Source: Zarea fungicola | Taxonomy: Eukaryota; Ascomycota; Sordariomycetes; Hypocreales; Cordycipitaceae | DNA length: 64,000 nt | Direction: 5' to 3' | Assembly (NCBI GenBank): GCA_900169235.1 | Contig: FWCC01000344.1 | Location: 49,253-113,252, forward strand | Shown: piece by piece, positions 38,747 to 50,257 of the stretch | Layout: every line of letters starts with the position of its first letter | How positions within the stretch are numbered: position 1 is the first letter of the stretch | The notes under the pieces: model-generated | Databases searched by the model: none | What the model was told of the DNA's origin: nothing | What the model saw: only the letters and a program-made list of their open reading frames with translations | Position numbers and translations under genes: made by a program

Positions 38747-39167
38747 CAGCCACCAATTCGGCTTCTCGCAGTACATTCCCTTTTCAAATCCGATTAGTTG
38801 CTTCTTTTGAACCACGGAAATGTCGCTCAGCACTGCTTCAATATCTATGCCGAACAAGCTTCAAGGAGGCATGCAAGAGACTTGAAAGACGTTTTCCGCC
38901 CAAATCGCTGACGCGGCAATAATAATCTTGTACGAGAGAAGATGCTGTAACAAAAGTCAAAAATGCATAAATAGGATAGAAGAACCATGTTTTAAAGACT
39001 CTATCAAAATACTGCACCAAGAACTTCCACTGCTTTATCCAACTAGCTCATCTCGACACCTTTTATATACTACTTACCGGCCATCCAATTCTCTCCGCGC
39101 TCATCTTTCTGCTAATACATACCATACTATACAAAACATCAAGAAACAATTCGTTTTACAAAGAAAC

Positions 39168-40338
39168 ATGATTGACGCAAGAGCCATCATCTGCACCGCC
39201 ATTGGCCAACTTCAGGTTCAATCCGTACCGGAGCCCATTGTGTTCCCCGGATGTGTCATCGTAAAGACAAAAGCCGTGGCCTTGAACCCGACCGATTGGA
39301 AGGCCATTCACAATCCAGCAGGCTTTGCCGTGGGGACGCGCCCCGGTGTTGACTTTGCAGGTGTCATTGAGGAAGTTGGACCGGATGTGGCAAAGGACAT
39401 TAAGAAAGGCGACAGAGTATGTGGTGTCACCTTTGGAGGGTATGTTCTGATCCCAACCGCCTTGTTCCTTTTCTTTCCGATATAAGAGGGCCGTTTTTAC
39501 CAGCAGCAAGAGCCCGATACTGACTTGCATCTTCATTTATAGAAAGAACCCGCATCTGGGTGCCTATGGAGACTATGTCTTGACCCTGGCACACCTTGTC
39601 ATCAAAATTCCGGACCATCTCAGCTTTGAGCAAGCTGCCACCCTGGGTGTCGGCGTGTTAACCACCGGGCAGACTCTCTACCAGCTTCTCGACCTCCCAC
39701 TCCCATCCGCACCAGCATCGGAGTCCTCTCCCTTCATCTTGATTGGCGGCGGAAGCACGGGAACAGCGGTCCTTGGCATCCAATACGCCAAGCTCTCCGG
39801 CCTGCGTGTCATTGCCACCGCGTCTCCCTACAACTTTGGCTACCTGCAGTCCCTCGGCGTCGATGTGCTCCTAGACTATCACGAAAGCAACGAGGAGCTG
39901 GTACGCAAGATCAAGGCCGTCGCTGGCGAGAATCTGACTCTCGCCTGGGACTGCTGTCCGAATGAAAAGTTTCCTCAGGTCGCTGCGCTCTCCATGAGCA
40001 CGACCCAAAAGGGCATCTACGCGACCGTGAGTCCGCTTACGCCCGCAGACTTCCTCAGGGAAATGAATCCCATGGTCGAAACCAAGTACCAGCTCGCATA
40101 CACGGCATCTGGTATGACATTCACCCGCGGTGACCACACTTTCCCTGCGTCCGAAAAGGACGCTGACTTTGCTCGCCGCTTCTTTGAGCTGTCGGCGCAG
40201 CTGCTTCTGGAAGGCAAAATTCAGCCTACGCGACCTACCATTAACAAGTATGGACAGGGGCTTGAGGGCGTCATGGTTGGCTTGGATGAGCTCTATCAGG
40301 GCAGGGTGGCTGGCACGAAGCTGGTGTACACAATGTAG
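39168..40338 (+). CDS. MDR-superfamily zinc-independent reductase (trans-enoyl reductase type), 355 aa
   Basis: Exons 39168-39439 and 39543-40338, joined over a 103-nt intron (GTATGT donor, TTATAG acceptor, phase 2) to give VTFGGKNPHLGAYGDYV. The medium-chain dehydrogenase/reductase fold has the N-terminal catalytic domain with NPTDWKAIHNPAGFAVGTRPGVDFAG. The nucleotide-binding domain carries LIGGGSTGTAVLGIQYAKL, a GxGxxG-like NADPH site. The zinc-ligand cysteines of classical alcohol dehydrogenases are absent. This is the branch that includes ToxD-like and stand-alone enoyl reductases working with polyketide synthases, and it also contains many quinone reductases. No synthase is in the window. 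It precedes the regulator and the dialkylglycine decarboxylase-like gene on the same strand, about 490 bp from the regulator, so it may be co-regulated. Confidence 0.85.
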
Positions 40339-40829
40339 CTGGCTGTGCACATGCGCTCAACTCTGCAAACTGTCACCTTTTTCAGTTGATTCAATCGTTT
40401 CTATTTGTCATGTTATTGTATCTATTTCTTATTTGTTACAAATTAGAGCTATTAAATGCTTTTTTAGTGAACCCGTGAAGTTCTATGCTAGACTCAGGCC
40501 ATCGTTGCCGCTACCCTATGCCGTGGCAATGCCAACATCTAGAAACCATTATCTGAGAATCATTCCAATTGATGAGAATTTTGACTGATTTTGATACATC
40601 TCCTCAAATAATTTCCATTCCGAAAGTAGCTATCTCGGCCCCCAAAATCTGGCTCGCGCTGCTGCCCAACCGTGGGTACCAACGCTACGGGAAACTCAAA
40701 ATGAGCCCGCGGCAAACTTCTCCGCGGCAAACTAAGAGCTCCATCACCGAAGACTCTGACCTTCTGCTTCCGGCAATCGCATGCCCAGAAATAACGAGAA
40801 ATTGAGAGTGGCATAATAATCAACTCTTG
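40339..40829. promoter_or_regulatory. intergenic region with tandem CCGCGGCAAACT elements
   Basis: About 490 bp between the reductase stop and the regulator ATG. Two identical 12-bp CCGCGGCAAACT elements, 15 bp apart, lie at 40707-40718 and 40722-40733, 97-123 bp upstream of the regulator start. A related CGGGAAACT occurs at about 40688. Confidence 0.6.
40707..40733 (+). promoter_or_regulatory. two tandem candidate Zn2Cys6 sites, CCGCGGCAAACT
   Basis: Two perfect copies, start-to-start spacing 15 bp, contain the CCG and CGG triplets favoured by Zn(II)2Cys6 dimers. The same core with one change (CCGCGGGAAACT) lies upstream of the aminotransferase at 42935-42946. Autoregulation by the encoded factor is inference. 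Confidence 0.55.
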
Positions 40830-42873
40830 ATGGAGGCGCAGGAGTCGTCTGAGCGGCCATACCGGTCGCATCTCCGGCCGGCATGCGTTCCCTGTCGGCG
40901 GCGAAAATCACGATGTCAAACGGAGCCAAATTCGGACACTTGCTTGACCTGCAAAGCGCACAAGTCAGATTGCTATTTTCCAGGTACTCCTGGGAGACAG
41001 ACCTCACCGGCCCTGAATACGCGCACACAACCGCGAAACACCAATCGTGGCCGCAATTCACCTGCTGCTAAGCGAGCCAGGCGAACTGCAGCGCCGCGGG
41101 CGAGGCGGCATAGCCTAGATGTAGCTCAGTCGGGAGTGATACCCTCGTCTTTACTCCAGCAATCCCAGCCGCCGGTTGCTGCACAGCCTGAAACCACATC
41201 ATTACAGCTTGACGCTGGTGACGATGAAAATCTCAATCCACACATCGTCGGCCCGGCAGTAACCAATGACAGTCAGGTGCTCGCAGACTATCTCTCCGGA
41301 ATTCCGGGCATGACAAGAAGTACACGCATTGCGATTCCCGAATCGGCCAGCAGAACTAAGCCAGTGCTCTTTACCATGGTCCAGAAGCGACCGTTGGGTA
41401 TACCGATTCACCAAAGTCCATCCGCCGAGAAGCTGGAAATCATCGAGAAGCTGCTCGAGCCAGATTCGGCCACCATCATTGAAGAGTTTGTCAAGCGCGC
41501 AATGCCTTATTAACGGTAGTAAAACTAAAATATTTCAGCTACTTCGCACGAATCAACCCCTGCATGCCAATTCTGGACGAGATATCATTTCGACGACAGT
41601 TTCAGAATTACAAGGACAAGATATCTCCCGCACTGCTCGCCTGCCTCTATGCACACATGGTCACGTATATGAACAACTCCCGGCTAATTTCACGTCGCCC
41701 CTGTATCGATGGAAGGTTCATCTGGAACCTAGCAAGCAAGGCCATATATTCGGAGCTTCATTTGTCGCCCGGAGTATCAATCATTACCGCTATCCTGCTC
41801 AATGTCGGCGGTCGTCCAACAACCTCACTAATAGGGAACGGCGTGCTACTTAGTTCAGCAGTATCGATGGCGCATTCACTTGGACTAAATCACAACCCAC
41901 TGGATTGGGATATTCCCAAATCAGAAAAACATCTTCGAATAAAGATTTGGTGGTCGCTGCTAATTCACGACAAGTGGTACGTTTTGTGCCTCTCAGCCCT
42001 ATGATGAGTTGCTAACAGTCTCGACAAAGGACCAGCCTGGCTCATGGGACACCCCCACGTATCTCACAGCTGCAGCAAGATGTTCCAGAACCAACGCTTC
42101 AGCATCTGTGCGAGCCTAATCATACAGAGAAGCAGTTGCAAGTCTCGTCCGTCTTTATCGCATTGGCTGGCCTGACGAGCGTACTGGACCGATGTCTCCA
42201 GCAAATATACACAATCGGCCGTGACAAGAACTGGAGCACCCCGGATCTAGACTTGGCCATACATACGTGGGTAGACTCTCTGATAGGACCAACGCGGCAC
42301 ATTGTCGTTCGCGGCACGAGCTTGGAGATACCGGGGGCGGCAAACCTCCGCCTGGCGTACTTGACCATTAAGCTGCTCGTGCAGCGCATCAGCCTCGAGG
42401 TCATAAAGCAAAAGCCAGACGGCTCCGTAGATCACGTCCAGGCCTGCTATCTACAGGCCAGGCAGTCCGCTGAGGAAATCCTCCTATTTACCCAGGACCT
42501 GCAGACGCCGCAGCTCAATGACTTTTGGCTCCCCGTAGGCGCTTTCGCGTACCCAACCACTATCAACTTTCTGCTTCGGCACGCGCTCGAAACGGAAACT
42601 TCGCCTTCCAAGCTTGCACAGAGCACATCGTTTCGCATGGCACGAGAGCTCATTGACACGCTGCGACGGCATAAAGAAACACATGGTTGGGAAATGGGTG
42701 ACGTTTGCTTGGCACAGCATGCGGAGATTGTGGACAAGGTGCTCGCCAATGTCGCGCCAGAGGGATTTGACCCCGACGACATGCTGGACTCTAATGATTT
42801 TGTAATGCCAGATGCTTCCGTATTGGACCAGCTCTTCCCCAGTCTGTGGGATCCGCTGCAGAATGTATGGTAA
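40830..42873 (+). CDS. Zn(II)2Cys6 transcription factor with fungal_trans domain, first junction problematic
   Basis: The ATG at 40830 begins MEAQESSERPYRSHLRP. The N-terminal zinc cluster is CVPCRRRKSRC...CLTCKAHKSDC, followed by a basic linker (AAKRARRTAAPRARR). Exon 2 (41539-41976) starts YFARINPCMPILDE, the fungal_trans-domain start that in relatives follows directly after FVKR. Exon 3 is 42030-42873, after a clean 53-nt GT-AG intron that rebuilds HDKWTSLAHG. The junction between exons 1 and 2 does not fit a normal intron. The frame requires a donor at 41497, where the sequence is CG|CG rather than GT or GC. Unspliced, translation stops at TAA 41511-41513 after FVKRAMPY. A rare GC donor two codons earlier would give FVNYFAR, with poor consensus. 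It may be a damaged gene or a sequence error. Otherwise it looks intact to its end at about residue 640. Confidence 0.7.
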
Positions 42874-42934
42874 ATCAGCAATGGCAAGAAGGGGTCTAGA
42901 CCGGTTCGATGGCGGTTTTCCCGTGCAAAGTTGC

Positions 42935-42946
42935 CCGCGGGAAACT
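42935..42946 (+). promoter_or_regulatory. candidate Zn2Cys6 site CCGCGGGAAACT in a palindrome
   Basis: It lies inside AGTTGCCCGCGGGAAACT (42929-42946), which reads AGTTnCCCGCGGGnAACT on both strands: perfect dyad symmetry apart from the two n positions. It sits about 160 bp upstream of the aminotransferase ATG, and shares its CCGCGGnAAACT core with the pair upstream of the regulator. Confidence 0.6.
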
Positions 42947-43009
42947 ACACCGCGCCACTTAATACCACGATAAGGGTTCATTGGTCACGGTATCGGAGCT
43001 GAATTAAAG

Positions 43010-43016
43010 TATATAT
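43010..43016 (+). promoter_or_regulatory. TATA box of the aminotransferase gene
   Basis: TATATAT lies about 90 bp upstream of the ATG at 43103. Confidence 0.5.
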
Positions 43017-43102
43017 GAAATGAATGCCATCCTCTTGTGTTCAAACTGTCATCACTTGATTCATTCTCATCGTTCACATTATTCTACTGTTAGTCTGTCA
43101 CT

Positions 43103-44497
43103 ATGGCGCCCGCACTCACCACAGGCACAGCAACGGAGGCTACTTCGTCAAAGGCAGACGTCGCACCAACACTTTATCAAAATGAAGATCCCAAAGCTCT
43201 GGTCGAGAAATGTAACAAGTATCTCTTGACTTTTGGAAGCCCAGTTCATGACGAAGTCGTAGTCGGGACAAAGGGATTGTACTTTTACACTGCCAGCGGC
43301 AAAAAGATTCTCGATTGGACATCCGGCCAAATGTCCTGCTTACTCGGCCACGGCCACCCAGAAATCGTCAAGACCATTGCCGACCATGCCCAATCTCTCG
43401 ACCACACCTTTTCAGGCATGGTTTCCCCTCCCGTGGTGAACCTGGCGGAGCGGCTGTGCAACATGCTCCCCGAGGGACTCGACCGCACCTTCTTCCTCTC
43501 GACGGGCGGCGAGAGCAACGAGGCCGCCATCAAGCTCGCCAAGGTCGTCACGGGCAAGTTCGAGGTCGTCGGCCTCGGTGCCTCCTGGCACGGCGTCACG
43601 GCGCAGGCCGTCGGCGCGCAGTTTCACTTTGGCCGAAGCGGCCACGGCCCGCTCATGCCGGGCTCCCTGATGCTCCCCGCGCCCAACGCCTACCGCTCCG
43701 TGTTTCGCAAGGCCGACGGCTCGTACGACTGGGAGGCCGAGCTTGACTACGGCTGGCGCCAGATCGACCTGCAGTCGTGCGGCTCGCTCGCCTGCTGCAT
43801 CGTCGAGTGCATCCAGAGCTCCGGCGGCATGCACGTCCTGCCCGCCGGCTACCTCGCGGCGCTCAAGAAGCACTGCGAGGCGAGGGGAATGCTCCTGATT
43901 GTCGACGAGGCGCAAACAGGCGTCGGCCGCTGCGGCGACTTCATGGCCATCCAGCACGAGGGCGTCGTGCCGGACATCCTCACCCTCTCCAAGACGCTCG
44001 GCAACGGCCTGCCCCTGAGCGCCGTGGTGACGAGCGAGGAGGTCCACAGCAGGGCCGTGCAGAACAAGTTCTTCTTCTACACGACGCACCTCAACGACCC
44101 GCTCGTCGCGGCCGTCGGCGACAAGGTCCTCGAGATTGTCGAGCGCGACAACTTGGTGAAGCACGCGCGCGAGGTCGGGGCCCTGCTCCACGAGGGCCTG
44201 CAGAGGCTCATGGCGCGCTACGGCTGCATCGGCCAGGTGCGCGGGCGCGGGCTCATGGCTGGCGTCGAGATTGTGGCCGACAGGGCGTCCAAGGCGCAGG
44301 ACGTCGAGTTTGCGGGCGCGCTCGGCGACAAGGCGTACGAGCATGGCCTCTGGGCCAACCTGAGCAGTCACCCGAGCTTTGGCGGCGTGCTGCGCATCGC
44401 GCCGCCCATTACGGTCACGGCGGAGGAGATTGAGCAAGGGTTGGCGATCCTGGAGCGGGCTCTGTCCGAGATGGACGGTTCGCTTCCTCTGTACTAG
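43103..44497 (+). CDS. 2,2-dialkylglycine decarboxylase-like PLP aminotransferase, 464 aa
   Basis: An intronless class III aminotransferase. Its motifs run parallel to bacterial 2,2-dialkylglycine decarboxylase: DWTSGQMSCLLGHGHPEIV (72-90), LDRTFFLSTGGESNEAA (126-142), SWHGVT (161-166), LLIVDEAQTGVGRCG (264-278), DILTLSKTLGNGLPL (291-305, Lys297 forms the PLP Schiff base), FFYTTH and RIAPPITV. The Gln in SGQMS that marks the decarboxylating subgroup is present (Gln76); the residue after WHG is Val instead of the bacterial Met. The family decarboxylates 2-aminoisobutyrate and isovaline and transaminates pyruvate. Such amino acids occur in fungal peptaibols, so a role in their turnover is plausible inference. 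The coding part is markedly more GC-rich than its flanks, which could reflect transfer or codon bias. Confidence 0.88.
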   Translation: MAPALTTGTATEATSSKADVAPTLYQNEDPKALVEKCNKYLLTFGSPVHDEVVVGTKGLYFYTASGKKILDWTSGQMSCLLGHGHPEIVKTIADHAQSLDHTFSGMVSPPVVNLAERLCNMLPEGLDRTFFLSTGGESNEAAIKLAKVVTGKFEVVGLGASWHGVTAQAVGAQFHFGRSGHGPLMPGSLMLPAPNAYRSVFRKADGSYDWEAELDYGWRQIDLQSCGSLACCIVECIQSSGGMHVLPAGYLAALKKHCEARGMLLIVDEAQTGVGRCGDFMAIQHEGVVPDILTLSKTLGNGLPLSAVVTSEEVHSRAVQNKFFFYTTHLNDPLVAAVGDKVLEIVERDNLVKHAREVGALLHEGLQRLMARYGCIGQVRGRGLMAGVEIVADRASKAQDVEFAGALGDKAYEHGLWANLSSHPSFGGVLRIAPPITVTAEEIEQGLAILERALSEMDGSLPLY

Positions 44498-45933
44498 GCT
44501 GCTTTACGTGACATGGTTTCTCGCTTAATTATAATAGAATGTTTTTTTTTAAGTCCGACCCGACGGAGGGCGACCTCATTTTTTGCCACTTGCCAACAGG
44601 CACCCTAACTATAAAGCTGAACCTTGGGGTGTAGTAGTCCTCGTTTCGTAATTTTACATTGGCAGGTGAGATGAAATGGCGGGGGATCAGCGCTACCAGC
44701 AAAACAGACCCAACTCGGGTTAGGCAGATCTCTTCATCGATGTCCTTTTGCGGCAGGGTATAATTCCGTCAATAGAGTCCTGTGTTTGCTTTCCGGGGGC
44801 TAGAACGTCGGGGTGGTCCGATTAACATGGTAGGCAGTTCAGCTCCCAGACGCCATTCCGCATATTTCTTGCCTAATACACTCAAAGACTGCATATCTAT
44901 GCAATCGTAGATTGCTCTGCGCCATCCGGTAAACCACGCTGGCTTGGCAAGAACCCAACGTGCCACATTCCTCCTCTCCGTTCTTCAACCGCCATGGCGT
45001 CTGCGGTGGGAAAAGGAGGCGTATGGCACTCGAATGAATGTCGTAAATGGCGACATCAAAGGCCGGAGAAACTGTGTAAAGTAATTGCTGATCCCCGCTG
45101 AAAGCAATGACTTGTCTCGTGGCGAATCCCGGCGTGTGGGCTTTTAAGCCACCGTTATCTCGATAGAGCCACAACGCGAGGGAATGGCATACATAGATTC
45201 CGCCCCCGAACCCCCAAATCGCGAAATCAATAAACCTGATGGCTTTTCTTGGGGGCCTCTTGATCCGTCTGCACCACATCACTAGTCCGTGCCACTTCAC
45301 CTCCCCGCGTTCTGTGGCGGGCGCCTGATACGCACCCAAGCACCCATGCAGGCACTTTTGCTTTTTGGGGTGGTGTAGTCTCGTTCGACGCCAAGTAAAT
45401 TCCATGGCGGTCTTTGTTTCTGTTCTTGTCATGGTGCCATGTTTGTCAGTAGAAACCCATAACTAAGTTCTGGGCTGGCTTGAGATTTTTTGTGCAAGAG
45501 GCGCTCCCAGTGGCAGACCATCGTACGCCACGTCTTGGCTGGCTTTGAACAAGGGCTTCCAGCCAACATTCTGTTTCATGACCGAACAGGTTCGTGGCAA
45601 AAAAGAGCATTGCTGTCCGATCTACCAGTCTTGGTAGCAACTTGGAAAACAGGAGTCAGGGGGCACTAACGGTACTAACATAGGCCAGTCAAATGCAGGA
45701 GATGCATCTTGCCCACGTACTATCTCTCCAATTCTCCGTGCTTGCTGCCGTGTAATGGGGCTTGGTGGCTGGCCCTGGCTGAAGGTGCGAGCCGCCTATC
45801 TGCATATAAATGCAGAAAGTAGACTTGAACCCTTACACAACTATTGATAATTTCGCGACTGCTCCTATGCGATTGTTTTATTGAACCTCTTTTATTTCTG
45901 ATTCTTTCGCCTCTTGCACCTAATACCAGAACA
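44498..45933. other. gene-poor stretch, 1.4 kb
   Basis: Contains one minus-strand frame (44839-45432) described separately. The remainder holds no supported coding sequence. A TATA box (TATAAA, 45805-45810) precedes the next regulator by about 125 bp. Confidence 0.5.
44839..45432 (-). CDS. hypothetical open frame, 197 aa, weakly supported
   Basis: A 197-codon frame with an ATG at 45432 and a second in-frame Met nine residues later. It contains a hydrophobic stretch (FIDFAIWGFGGGIYVCHSLALWLY) and no recognisable motif, signal peptide or homologous pattern. Composition is close to the flanks. It could be a random frame; I list it because the stretch is otherwise empty and it neighbours the peptide cluster. 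Confidence 0.2.
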   Translation of the reverse strand: MTRTETKTAMEFTWRRTRLHHPKKQKCLHGCLGAYQAPATERGEVKWHGLVMWCRRIKRPPRKAIRFIDFAIWGFGGGIYVCHSLALWLYRDNGGLKAHTPGFATRQVIAFSGDQQLLYTVSPAFDVAIYDIHSSAIRLLFPPQTPWRLKNGEEECGTLGSCQASVVYRMAQSNLRLHRYAVFECIRQEICGMASGS

Positions 45934-46656
45934 ATGGGTCATTCTGGGGCTGCTGCCCACTCGTCAGAGCTGAAACGCTCGTGTGAGGAGTGTAGTTCAT
46001 CAAAAGTCAAGTGCAGCCAAGACAGACCTGTATGCAAGCGCTGCCGAAAGCATCGCATTGAATGCACATACACGCCGCCAAAGCGGACGGGCAGGCCTCG
46101 CAAGATCCCAAAGGACGGTAGCGGCTCACAGTCCCGAACCATCCGACCTCTGGCGAGCGCTCCTCCTGACAACATTGGCTGTGTGAGCGTGGCGCTGGCC
46201 GGGGACCATCCCTCTTCTGGCGTCATGGTTGAGCAAGACATGGTAGCAGCGTATCATCAGGCTGCGAATCCTGCAACTGACCTCTTTGGGCTCGGCTGTG
46301 CTGAGCTTGACGGCACCGGCACGAGTGACATCATGGCGCTGCACGGTCCCGGCTACGAGCTCCTCGATCATGAATGGCTGGACCACACACAGACTGCAGA
46401 CATGGTCTGGGGTACAGCGCTAGTTGGACAGTCTTGTGGCCAGGGTGATGTTGACGACGGCCATGCGCAGTTCAGGAACCACAGCCTTGCTGCAGAGCAA
46501 TACGGCAGTGTCCAGGAAATGTGGAGGCAGCAGTTGTCACGATCTAGATCCATCTGCTGGGATGATCAGACCATGTATTCGGATCCTCAACTCTTGCTGG
46601 GGGAACATGCACAGTTTGTTACGTATGACCAAGATGTGTTTGTGGAAACATGGTGA
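45934..46656 (+). CDS. short Zn(II)2Cys6 transcription factor, 240 aa
   Basis: An intronless gene; the ATG at 45934 (MGHSGAAAHSSELKRS) lies about 125 bp after a TATAAA box. The N terminus has the zinc binuclear cluster CEECSSSKVKCSQDRPVCKRCRKHRIEC (residues 17-44). A basic, AT-hook-like KRTGRPRKIPK follows directly, an arrangement seen in aflatoxin-type pathway regulators. There is no fungal_trans domain. The remaining 180 residues are Asp/Gln-rich and acidic, compatible with an activation region. It is convergent with the UstYa-family gene, with a 376-bp spacer, and is the natural candidate regulator of the neighbouring peptide locus. That link rests on proximity only; no shared binding motif was established. 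Confidence 0.85.
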   Translation: MGHSGAAAHSSELKRSCEECSSSKVKCSQDRPVCKRCRKHRIECTYTPPKRTGRPRKIPKDGSGSQSRTIRPLASAPPDNIGCVSVALAGDHPSSGVMVEQDMVAAYHQAANPATDLFGLGCAELDGTGTSDIMALHGPGYELLDHEWLDHTQTADMVWGTALVGQSCGQGDVDDGHAQFRNHSLAAEQYGSVQEMWRQQLSRSRSICWDDQTMYSDPQLLLGEHAQFVTYDQDVFVETW

Positions 46657-47032
46657 TGCGATACCACTGCAGGGAAAGGCTGGGTATTAAACATTAGTTC
46701 TTAGCTTTCTTCTTGTATAAATCATGTAATTATTAGAATTTACTCGTATGAAATCAGATTCGCAAGTGTCAAGGTTATCTAAGAACTGTAGGCCGGGAGA
46801 GTATGGAGGAGGGCAAGGTTGCGCGAGACTAAGCATGAGGCTATTTAATTCATCACTTGCAAATTTCATTGTCATTAAGTTTTCATGTTTTTATTTTATT
46901 TTTTTAATCTTTTTATTTTTTTACTGTTTTGCCTGTTTTCTAAAATTGTGAATAGTAAAACTCCCTCCACACTACACAGCAGAGGCACAGATCGAAAGCC
47001 GCGTTGAATCAATCTCTGGTTACAATGAGAGC
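46657..47032. other. convergent intergenic region, about 375 bp
   Basis: AT-rich 3' flanks of the regulator and the UstYa-family gene, with a T-rich tract at 46886-46922. No gene. Confidence 0.6.
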
Positions 47033-48155
47033 CTAGTGCTCATGATCTTCAATCTTTAGCGAAACTCCTATCCTTGAGGCGTTGTGTTTCCCATTTATAA
47101 AGACTTGCCCTGTAAATTTAATGCATATTAGCAAGGGCAGTCCATGCATCAACTGGAGAAGATGAAGTGTCAAGCTACGGCTTTACTCACCAAAGGTTGG
47201 GTGCACCATTCTACCATCCTTCTTTGCATTTACCCAATTGTTCCTTGTCCAGTCGTCGATACGCGACCAGTCCACGCATGTGCGCGGCGTCGACCAGTTG
47301 GCAGCAGGAATGGGGCTAAAGTCCAACCAGCGCATTGTGAGAATCGTGGTGTCTGCCTGGCACATGAGTGCATTTTTAATGAGAGCCAGACAGTGAACTT
47401 GGAGCGCAGTGTTAGTGGGTAACGTATTGCATGGGAGAAACGGCCAGATGAACTCACTTGTGTGCTGAGACTCCTCTCGACGCTCCTGTTCTGTCATGTT
47501 GGGAAAGTAATAGTCAAGGTTCATGTGTTGATAGAGTCGTTTCTGTTAACGTTAGCAGGATGTATCATAGATTTTCGGGATTAGATTTGTTTCACATACC
47601 AGGCAATGCAGGTTGTGGTGAACCGTCAGCATCCCATAGTACCCTCCGTCGGTGAAGTGAACAGCCTGGTATTCTCGCCCAAGACGCTCGACTTCCGACT
47701 CTGGAATCCTCACATCGGACCCTTTTTGCAATGTTAGACAATTTCGAAATTATAACGGCTTCTTTCTTTTCCATTTTCTTTCTCAACTCACACTTTGTAA
47801 GCTCAAACCAATTGTGATCAAGCTCTTTGCTAGGCTCGCCAAAAAATGGATGATCTGGCTTGTGGTTGTCCTCAAAAGTCTGAAGCTTGTACTCAATGGC
47901 ATCCTCTAAAAGATTGGGATACAGATGCGGCCCGCCTCGACATTCATAGTCAACTTTGCGCAGGGTTGTGACTGTAAGGCCCATGATGGCCAGTGTATAC
48001 ACTGCGACGCCAAAGACCGTCAGGAGCAGATATCGCATGCGCTTTTTTTCAAAGTCTGCGCCAAGCCGATACTTTAATAATGTATGTGGCAGCAGAGATT
48101 CAGACTCAAAGTCATCATCAAGCGACGGTGATGGCAAGTGCTTTTCGGGATCCAT
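47033..48155 (-). CDS. UstYa-family (DUF3328) protein, 284 aa, five exons
   Basis: Exons 48155-47792, 47721-47600, 47542-47458, 47397-47191 and 47109-47033; introns 70, 57, 60 and 81 nt, all GT-AG. The total is exactly 285 codons. The protein has a short acidic N terminus, one membrane span at about 42-64 (YLLLTVFGVAVYTLAIMGLTV), then the lumenal DUF3328 domain. It carries both family motifs, HNLHC (157-161) and HTIHC (189-193); the second is created only by the third splice. UstYa proteins are copper-dependent-type oxidases that cyclise or hydroxylate ribosomal peptides in ustiloxin, phomopsin and asperipin pathways. The final exon (HPTFGQVFINGKHN...) is less certain: without it the frame ends HPTFGE. 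It diverges from the repeat-bearing precursor gene, with 960 bp between starts. Confidence 0.88.
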
Positions 48156-49117
48156 GATGTGTGTGATACAATGGAGGAAAAGAAACAGAGACAAAGGGCA
48201 AGGAAGACGAAAGCGTTATTGATGTGGGATGGCAAGAGCACTGGCAACGAGGATATGTTATAAAATCCCGGACATCTCAGCAGCGAGTTGCTAGCATGAG
48301 TCTTTCCAACGGGATTCCACATGCCAGCTCTGGACAATCTAAACTCCCTCCAGTTATAAATGATCCCCCCAGTTGTGGCGCGCGATGTTACATGCAGCTT
48401 GCACCATTGGCGTTGTTGAGCTCGGCAGCTTTCTAGCCAATTGCGGCTGCAGTGGTTAGCGGCAGGATCGCCAGCCTGGAGACTCAATCGCACACTATTT
48501 GCCACCACGCTTGAGCCGCTTCAGCTCTGTTGTCCAGACTTGGAAGGTCGGAAGGTTTTGAGCCAATCAAAGCATACGTGCCTGGCCACGGCTGCTAAAC
48601 AAGTGCATGGTGGGCATATGGCCAAACCACATCTCAGCATCTGGTGGCACCAGATGCCCACAGGCGGGGGAAGAACAACAATACGCCACAAAAATGTTCA
48701 ATGTCACCATCAACGGGATCTTTCGAGCGAATGAAACGACCTTTGTCCTCTTATCGTTTAAGTTTTCTTGTAGAGTAGAATATAGAGTGTCGGGATAAAG
48801 CATTGTTGTTGCTGCAACTCTAGTGCCGAGATGCATCACGCGAGGTTTCGGGAGCTTTGCGTCCAATAAAGAAGCTTTTTATCCGCTTAATTTGAAGCTA
48901 CAGATGCATCTGTGAATCGATAGCTCTTGGAGACGGAAACAAGCTATGACTGGATTGGGATTCAATGCGAAAGGTGGCTAGTGACTGCTGCCAGGACCTT
49001 TTCCGGCATAAAGACTCAATATATAAAGAAAGCCAGTGTACTTGTCACTATAGCGCTTCATCTCACAGCACCATTCACTCTTACAATATTCATCGTCTCC
49101 AGCCAAAATCACAAAGA
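48156..49117. promoter_or_regulatory. shared divergent promoter of the UstYa-family and precursor genes
   Basis: 962 bp between the two ATGs. A TATA box TATATAAA at 49020-49027 serves the precursor, about 90 bp before its ATG. Short open frames here have no features. Divergent arrangement allows joint control, perhaps by the regulator at 45934. Confidence 0.55.
49020..49027 (+). promoter_or_regulatory. TATA box of the precursor-peptide gene
   Basis: TATATAAA followed by a short leader of about 90 bp to the ATG at 49118. Confidence 0.6.
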
Positions 49118-49587
49118 ATGCGATTCCTTGCCCAGAGTGTGACGGCCATGGCCTTGGTGTCGGCCGCCATTGCCCTGCCGACGAATGTCAAGAGTATGTG
49201 CACTTCGAGGCAAAGAAGCTACACAAAAACATCTACTAACTTTTGAAAGTTTCTACTAATCTCAATCATCGCGAGGCTGAAAAGGCTCCCGAGGAGGGCC
49301 TCGAGCCATACAGCGCGTACGGTAACTGGAAGCGCGCTGATGCGCAAAAGGCACCCGAGGAAGACCTCGAGCCCTATGGCGCTTACGGAAACTGGAAGCG
49401 AGCAGATGCTCCTGACGAGGAGTCTGAGCCCTACGGCGCGTACGGAAACTTCAAGCGGGCAGACACTGAGAAGGCACCAGAGGAAGGCCTCGAACCGTAT
49501 GGTGCATATGGTAACTGGAAGCGTGCGGAAGCCCAGAGCGCTCCCGATGAGGAATCTGAACCTTATGGTGCCTATGGAAACTTTTAA
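49118..49587 (+). CDS. secreted repeat precursor of a ribosomal peptide (dikaritin-like), 137 aa
   Basis: Exon 1, 49118-49193, and exon 2, 49250-49587; a 56-nt intron (GTATGT donor, CTACTAAC branch, GAAAG acceptor, phase 1). Residues 1-20 form a signal peptide (MRFLAQSVTAMALVSAAIA). Five tandem units follow, each acidic and ending in a core. Core positions: 49306-49329 PYSAYGNW, 49372-49395 PYGAYGNW, 49429-49452 PYGAYGNF, 49495-49518 PYGAYGNW, 49561-49584 PYGAYGNF. Units one to four end in Lys-Arg, the Kex2 site, followed by Ala-Asp or Ala-Glu dipeptides; the fifth ends at the stop. There are no cysteines and each core has two Tyr. This matches dikaritin precursors (ustiloxin, asperipin), whose Tyr-containing cores are cyclised by UstYa enzymes, and a UstYa-family gene lies divergently next door. 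The alternative is an unmodified Kex2-processed peptide. It lacks the WCxxxGxxCW core of alpha-pheromones. Confidence 0.9.
49306..49584 (+). repeat. five-unit coding tandem repeat
   Basis: In-frame repeats of about 57-66 bp within the precursor gene. The W-ending cores follow the long spacer xKAPEE(G/D)LE, the F-ending cores follow APDEESE. Synonymous differences between units show that the repeats are not very recent copies. Confidence 0.9.
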
Positions 49588-50248
49588 ACTGTAGTCTCCT
49601 GCGTACCTGGGGCTTTTTTGCGTGTTGGCTGCCGATCTGGTGTCGACTACGATTATTGCGGTGGATATGGTGTCCGCTTGATACACCTGGACACTATTTA
49701 CGCCACCTAGTGTAATTGATTCCAATTTGCTTCTTTGTCATTGTTTTGTTTTATTCCTGTGATGAATGTAATCCATTGTTTGTGAGTAGACGGCCCTGGA
49801 TCATCTCAGCAGATTTTCTACAAATCTGTAGGTGCAAACTATGCATATTTGCAAGCACATATAGTAAATTCATTAATTGTCATGCAAAATAAAGAAGTCA
49901 CTTTGTTCTACTTTCTTTCTGGCCTTTGTGGCGTTTTGCCAAAGTTAAAAGAGTGCGCGCAGGGCAGGGCATATTCTTGCGGGATGAGCGTGCAATAAAG
50001 CCGTCGTACAATGCTCATCTCGCAAACAAAGAAAGCTAAAGTGAAAAGAAAAGTTGCCCTCTTTCCTTTTTTAAGAAGTATTTATACACTGTCCGTTTCG
50101 GTTTTTTTTCTCGTCTGCCACCACACTACACTCCTACCAACGCGAAATTCGCTTCGTCCCAACGCGAAATTCGATTCACCCCAACTGAATTCTATTCGTC
50201 CCAACGCGGATTCTATTCGTCCCAACGCGAAATTCGATTCGTACCAAC
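49588..50248. other. intergenic region, about 660 bp, with tandem repeats at its end
   Basis: AT-leaning 3' flank of the precursor gene. The 20-22 bp repeats at 50136-50257 lead into the next open frame. No gene seen. Confidence 0.55.
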
Positions 50249-50257
50249 ATGCATTCT
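50136..50257. repeat. 20-22 bp tandem repeat, about 5.5 copies
   Basis: Degenerate units of the form CCAACGCGAAATTCGATTCG. They run up to and overlap the ATG at 50249. On the plus strand they can be read in frame as RPNAKFDS-type units, and on the minus strand as SNFALGRIE-type units, but no gene using either frame is supported. Confidence 0.85.

Follow-up and report, generated by a model that had tools for sequence, protein, structure and literature searches.

Proteins of the DUF3328 (UstYa) family are described as membrane-associated, O2-dependent enzymes with a binuclear copper centre, with two HxxHC motifs carried by paired helices inside the organelle lumen (CctR; PMC12435403). In a survey of fungal Kex2-repeat proteins, a DUF3328 gene lay no more than 15 genes away for 22% of 7,878 precursors, i.e. 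more than 1,000, and the mean distance between the two was 3.09 genes (PMC7329392); UstYa-type peptides with a known product numbered five in a review of 2022 (PMC10512285). Among the described systems, the asperipin-2a cluster of Aspergillus flavus (aprA, aprY, aprT, aprR) is small and combines a repeat precursor with one UstYa-type gene and a core rich in Tyr, and no tyrosinase is reported for it (PMC6514808, PMC12048977). Its single DUF3328 protein, AprY, is reported to be essential for the bicyclic asperipin-2a and is the proposed maker of both ether rings (PMC6514808). A study on lichens likewise treats clusters with one UstYa homologue and without tyrosinase (PMC12048977). Here we describe a locus in Zarea fungicola, on a stretch of 64,000 nucleotides of contig FWCC01000344.1 (the window), in which a regulator gene, a UstYa/DUF3328 gene and a Kex2-type repeat precursor gene lie within 3.7 kb, at or near the positions given in a preliminary description of this DNA. 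The locus is best read as a minimal dikaritin-type cluster for a ribosomally synthesised and post-translationally modified peptide (RiPP).

The precursor begins with a hydrophobic N-terminal region, judged to be a signal region by hydrophobicity only, and contains no Cys; each of its five units carries two Tyr (5/5). Thus, the secreted, Cys-free precursor of five tandem units, four of them closed by Lys-Arg (KR), was borne out as it had been described. A 66-base repeat was found in the gene by Tandem Repeats Finder (score 223), and in a six-frame scan of the window for Kex2-type repeats this open reading frame (ORF) alone was flagged, with nothing in ten mononucleotide shuffles. The nine core codons, compared over ten unit pairs, differ at 49 of 53.3 synonymous sites (proportion pS 0.92) and at 16 of 216.7 non-synonymous sites (pN 0.074). 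Since the changes in the core codons are mostly synonymous, the repeats are held by selection on the peptide and not on the DNA alone.

The UstYa gene stands head-to-head with the precursor gene. Its product matched the DUF3328 profile PF11807 with 168.6 bits (curated cut-off 25, E 2.5e-49) over residues 37-244 and profile positions 7-220 of 220, has one hydrophobic span at about residues 40-65 (Kyte-Doolittle) and carries HNLHC at residue 157 and HTIHC at residue 189. The one membrane span and the two HxxHC motifs of the preliminary description were therefore confirmed; its term "divergent" fits only in so far as the protein has few close relatives, and otherwise this is a normal above-threshold member of the family. 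A sequence search gave four proteins at E<=1e-20 among 321 candidates, one of them the unspliced reading of the gene itself, and a profile search gave eight at E<=1e-8 among 3,359 candidates. The closest was LLEC1_01330 of Akanthomyces lecanii, with 86% identity over 100% of the length; both proteins have 284 residues, which matches the spliced model. Identity was 46% to the protein of Elsinoe australis, 37% to Cladorrhinum, 36% to Immersiella caudata and 30% to Claviceps digitariae. Among solved structures, no match was found at E<=1. The AlphaFold model of the A. lecanii orthologue, which is weak (mean predicted local distance difference test score 51.2), places the HxxHC motifs in the neighbouring helices 154-169 and 180-202. 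The cyclochlorotine hydroxylase CctR is alike in having one N-terminal membrane helix and the arrangement HxxHC(x)nHxxHC with one motif per helix (PMC12435403), but its substrate, cyclochlorotine, is not the product of a repeat precursor.

The features of the class are thus found together: a signal region followed by Kex2-bounded tandem cores, an adjoining DUF3328 gene and Tyr in the core. A profile search of the whole 113-kb contig, C162 in our numbering, revealed neither a second UstYa segment nor a tyrosinase segment, so that the absence of both, claimed before for the window, extends to the contig; since both are missing, the product is probably simple, as asperipin-2a is. The resemblance to the asperipin cluster is not complete. 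The asperipin core is FYYTGY and the core of the window is PYGAYGN(W/F); furthermore, the asperipin cluster is described with a transporter and a reductase and without a regulator, whereas the present cluster includes a regulator, next to which no transporter or reductase was identified. Ustiloxin and phomopsin clusters share Kex2-type repeats, Tyr cores, UstYa-type proteins and PhomR-like/UstR regulators with the window (PMC6514808, PMC10512285), but they are reported to have the core YxIx (PMC7329392), at least two UstYa-type genes and a tyrosinase. This subtype was rejected because the contig contains neither tyrosinase nor second UstYa and the genome contains no segment of the S41-type peptidase PF03572, for which 10 of 14 control genomes gave matches. 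The cluster adds a member to a kind that is already known and is not a new class.

The genome contains 55 UstYa segments, which we grouped into about 40 genes, spread over 35 places. Contig C163 carries the paralogue closest to the UstYa of the window (63% identity over residues 183-262 and 50% over residues 40-163), and this place was examined for that reason. Its gene (ATG at C163:53698, minus strand) has four introns at aligned positions and phases matching those of the window gene. Head-to-head with it, 1,048 bp apart and oriented as in the window, starts a precursor gene (C163:54747) with a hydrophobic start, a short intron for which two acceptor sites fit, and ten (D/E)YIAYGA units, nine of which are followed by KR. 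Both cores have Y-x-A-Y-G in common. Codons for YxAYG followed by a single residue and K(R/S) were matched at 10 places in the 43 Mb genome, nine of them on C163 and one on C442 (reversed control 1); with two residues and a basic pair after YxAYG, five places were found, four in the window and one elsewhere (control 1; 43 Mb). The paralogous cluster gives independent support to the interpretation of the locus. The preliminary interpretation is supported in part: its reading of the locus as dikaritin-type is strengthened by the class architecture, by a full-member UstYa placed head-to-head and by this second pair with Tyr-x-Ala-Tyr-Gly, and its cyclic, modified product is a proposal.

The place on C442 (L047, G000:C442:22862-25884) holds a copy of the C163-type precursor that has decayed to three units, the middle one interrupted by an in-frame stop, and the genome-wide PF11807 segment search found no UstYa segment on that contig.

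Homologues of the precursor were searched among about 5.8 billion protein sequences. Two were found among 688 candidates, both from Cordyceps militaris: CCM_04406 and A9K55_004262 (E 1.4e-30 and 6.3e-29), which are 56-57% identical to the precursor. All 11 of their units read EPYGAYGN, followed by V (nine) or F (two); unlike the window, the last core residue is thus V or F, and QE follows KR. The two C. militaris gene models differ slightly just past the signal region, which is the intron place in our precursor model. The core had been called unfamiliar, and it is not isolated, being shared by C. militaris and contig C163; its common part is YxAYG, and the last residue is W, F or V and probably tolerant. 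The core strings gave no match in the PMC library, which does not cover supplementary tables and mostly lacks subscription papers; YIAYG strings hit only work unrelated by title and abstract, and nothing was found there for CCM_04406 and neighbouring tags or for Cordyceps militaris combined with RiPP and UstYa. The same precursor search, applied to the own genome, found the window locus only and missed the C163 precursor; hence it is insensitive for copies.

To see how enzymes and cores agree elsewhere, 20 further UstYa stretches, the highest in the score list, were examined and 13 others were left out. A Kex2-type repeat ORF was present in five of the 20 (L017, L018, L019, L023 and L026), or in 7 of 22 when the window and C163, neither of which was chosen blind, are included. 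The repeats of L023 and L026 were read in likely frames other than those flagged by the scan, and the Lys-rich repeat of L021 was disregarded. L017 (G000:C230) and L018 (G000:C439) each combine one repeat precursor with two UstYa genes, and ILY....GWGKR is common to the cores. In a tree of 29 rows and 66 columns from the last part of the UstYa domain, in which the C163 gene was entered twice, the UstYa genes of C230 and C439 were sisters in two pairs (93/91 and 99/89, the latter starred), and the enzymes of the window, A. lecanii, Elsinoe and C163 grouped at 93/97. Enzyme kinship therefore agrees with core type twice, for window and C163 and for C230 and C439, suggesting the adjoining cores as the substrates of these enzymes.

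Several observations weigh against reading the locus as a dikaritin-type pair. With a repeat ORF in only five of the 20 further stretches, the presence of UstYa alone does not imply a RiPP. The 93/97 group lies just below the star mark of the program, and Elsinoe, not C163, is nearest to the window (88/84), so that either the C163 copy is old or a gene among these came in from another source. No repeat precursor was obtained for A. lecanii or Elsinoe in the precursor search, perhaps because it is unannotated there. Conversely, C. militaris has the precursor, and a UstYa orthologue of this fungus was absent from both UstYa searches, which reach only relatives sharing five-residue words; this counts against a fixed partnership of enzyme and precursor.

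On balance, we consider it likely, from the gene arrangement, that the core peptide is modified by the adjoining UstYa, and the tyrosines of YxAYG are the best candidates for its site of action. In the mechanism proposed by analogy with the known systems, the precursor would enter the secretory pathway and Kex2 would cut after KR, releasing peptides of 17-20 residues from which a carboxypeptidase would trim KR to give, for example, ADAQKAPEEDLEPYGAYGNW. UstYa, as a lumenal enzyme dependent on copper, would then oxidise the Tyr-x-x-Tyr dyad, most likely with formation of a ring from Tyr-O to C-beta (or from Tyr to Tyr), and other proteases may remove the acidic spacer and leave a small (P)YGAYGN(W/F) product. 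The chances that the modification is a crosslink, rather than a hydroxylation or desaturation, are about even. DUF3328 members are reported to hydroxylate, halogenate and isomerise as well as to macrocyclise (PMC12435403), and UstYa proteins of the phomopsin pathway are also described to desaturate residues (PMC10512285), so hydroxylation, desaturation or halogenation of the peptide by UstYa without any ring closure has to be considered. We regard it as rather unlikely: the residue crosslinked in the known examples covered by the survey is Tyr (PMC7329392), and two tyrosines three apart are conserved throughout the three YGAYGN-type precursors (16 of 16 units) and in 10 of 10 units of C163.

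Other explanations dispense with a modification of this peptide by this enzyme. The precursor could give rise to unmodified secreted signalling peptides, alpha-pheromone-like or those of another Kex2-repeat hormone, with UstYa as an unrelated neighbour. Ascomycete alpha-pheromone precursors do have the same layout, a signal region followed by Kex2-bounded repeats as in alpha-factor, and 74% of the surveyed Kex2-repeat proteins are neither pheromones nor near a DUF3328 gene (PMC7329392). In alpha-pheromone precursors, XA or XP dipeptides, the STE13 type, follow the Kex2 sites (PMC6339444). The leader of our precursor ends in HR-EA, with an XA dipeptide after a basic residue, but this is the only such place; after KR there is none at the four sites of the window (AD, AD, AD, AE), none at nine in C163 and none at nine in the two C. 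militaris proteins. Pleosporales alpha-pheromones begin with PYG (PYG[LM]P[IV]G; PMC6339444), yet this is all that PYGAYGN shares with them, and the two-Cys type is not matched by a precursor without Cys. In favour of the signalling-peptide explanation, no separate alpha-pheromone gene was recovered with three codon patterns derived from pheromone motifs: they hit 0 places, 5 scattered places (reversed control 3) and 1 place (control 0), with no tandem array. The C. militaris UstYa orthologue that was not recovered also speaks for this explanation. On the other hand, a nearby DUF3328 gene was absent for 213 of 216 putative fungal pheromones and for 227 of 227 yeast alpha-factor-type entries in the survey (PMC7329392), and the head-to-head pairing with UstYa recurs at C163. 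The alpha-pheromone reading is not preferred, given the lack of STE13 dipeptides after KR, the lack of Cys and the UstYa neighbour, and unmodified signalling peptides of any kind appear improbable. Still less credible, to the point of being very improbable, is an accidental position of UstYa beside the precursor, with the enzyme serving another metabolite pathway. Oxidoreductase, regulator and aminotransferase genes at 38886-44497 lie 2.5-9 kb off, and DUF3328 proteins are reported from polyketide and nonribosomal-peptide clusters too (PMC12048977); however, the closest UstYa paralogue has the same head-to-head precursor, and neither a polyketide synthase nor a nonribosomal peptide synthetase was among the 18 window proteins, a part of the window genes, that were run against Pfam. 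Membership of UstYa in that neighbouring group was rejected on the repeated pairing of UstYa and precursor.

If the precursor is indeed the substrate of its UstYa, the pairs may belong to a YxAYG subfamily of dikaritins, a proposal that we make tentatively and hold to be somewhat doubtful. A UstYa clade and its precursor would have been kept or copied as a head-to-head module (in the window and C163, and by prediction in A. lecanii and Elsinoe australis), and the enzyme would link Tyr(i) with Tyr(i+3), and Tyr(i+3) perhaps also with the hydrophobic residue i+6 (W/F/V) where present. Were this true, ring types not yet described would be expected, and the co-evolution of enzyme and core could be read from sequence. 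Besides, related enzyme-precursor pairs whose cores differ occur within one genome (YGAYGN(W/F)/YIAYGA and ILYNN(G/P)AGWGKR/ILYF...GWGKR), a natural comparison for the recognition of substrates by DUF3328 proteins, and the locus of the window is small enough for simple heterologous expression.

Of the other UstYa stretches with repeats, L026 (G000:C157, at a contig end) has a KRHKYSVSAK-type repeat ORF whose neighbours are a UstYa gene and a tyrosinase segment, a layout nearer to ustiloxin and phomopsin than that of the window. L023 (G000:C144) contains VDPHNRFWKK units and L019 (G000:C167) REFLNILDKKDEDDKW units, both without Tyr and both beside UstYa genes; if these repeats are real substrates, the chemistry of UstYa there is not on Tyr.

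The Zn(II)2Cys6 regulator that had been noted next to the UstYa gene was verified by its Pfam match. Its gene is convergent with the UstYa gene, and it may control the UstYa/precursor pair. The palindrome GATGCATC, picked after shared 9-mers had been listed, occurs three times in the window, each time upstream of cluster genes; 15 of 100 shuffles also reach three. A pair of it at 60-90-bp spacing exists at a single place in the whole genome, and it was not found in the divergent region of C163. As promoter motif of the cluster it is a lead only. No CGG-type pair common to both window promoters was found, and the divergent regions of the window and C163 have a 12-base word in common, on opposite strands.

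Table 1 Features of the locus and of the paralogous pair (positions in the window unless a contig is named).
Feature	Position	Strand	Description
Zn(II)2Cys6 regulator gene	45934-46656	+	single exon, 240 aa; Zn_clus PF00172, 37.4 bits, E 2.8e-9, cut-off 21
UstYa/DUF3328 gene	48155-47792, 47721-47600, 47542-47458, 47397-47191, 47109-47033	-	five exons, 284 aa, splice model
Divergent intergenic region	48156-49117		962 bp, UstYa start to precursor start
Kex2-type repeat precursor gene	49118-49193 + 49250-49587 (stop included)	+	two exons, 137 aa; intron 49194-49249
Five core units EPY(G/S)AYGN(W/F)	49303-49584	+	four closed by KR; fifth ends at stop
GATGCATC palindrome	45701-45708		upstream of regulator
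Two GATGCATC palindromes	48830-48837 + 48903-48910		in UstYa/precursor divergent region
C163 UstYa/precursor pair	G000:C163:52775-55376 (L037 4276-6877)	divergent	ten (D/E)YIAYGA units

Beyond the cluster, a 22-bp tandem repeat of about five copies lies at 50137-50257, just before a hypothetical ORF of 151 aa without Pfam match. On the other side, at 38886-44497, an oxidoreductase (ADH_N), a second Zn2Cys6 regulator and a class-III aminotransferase are encoded in a row, possibly a separate metabolic gene group.

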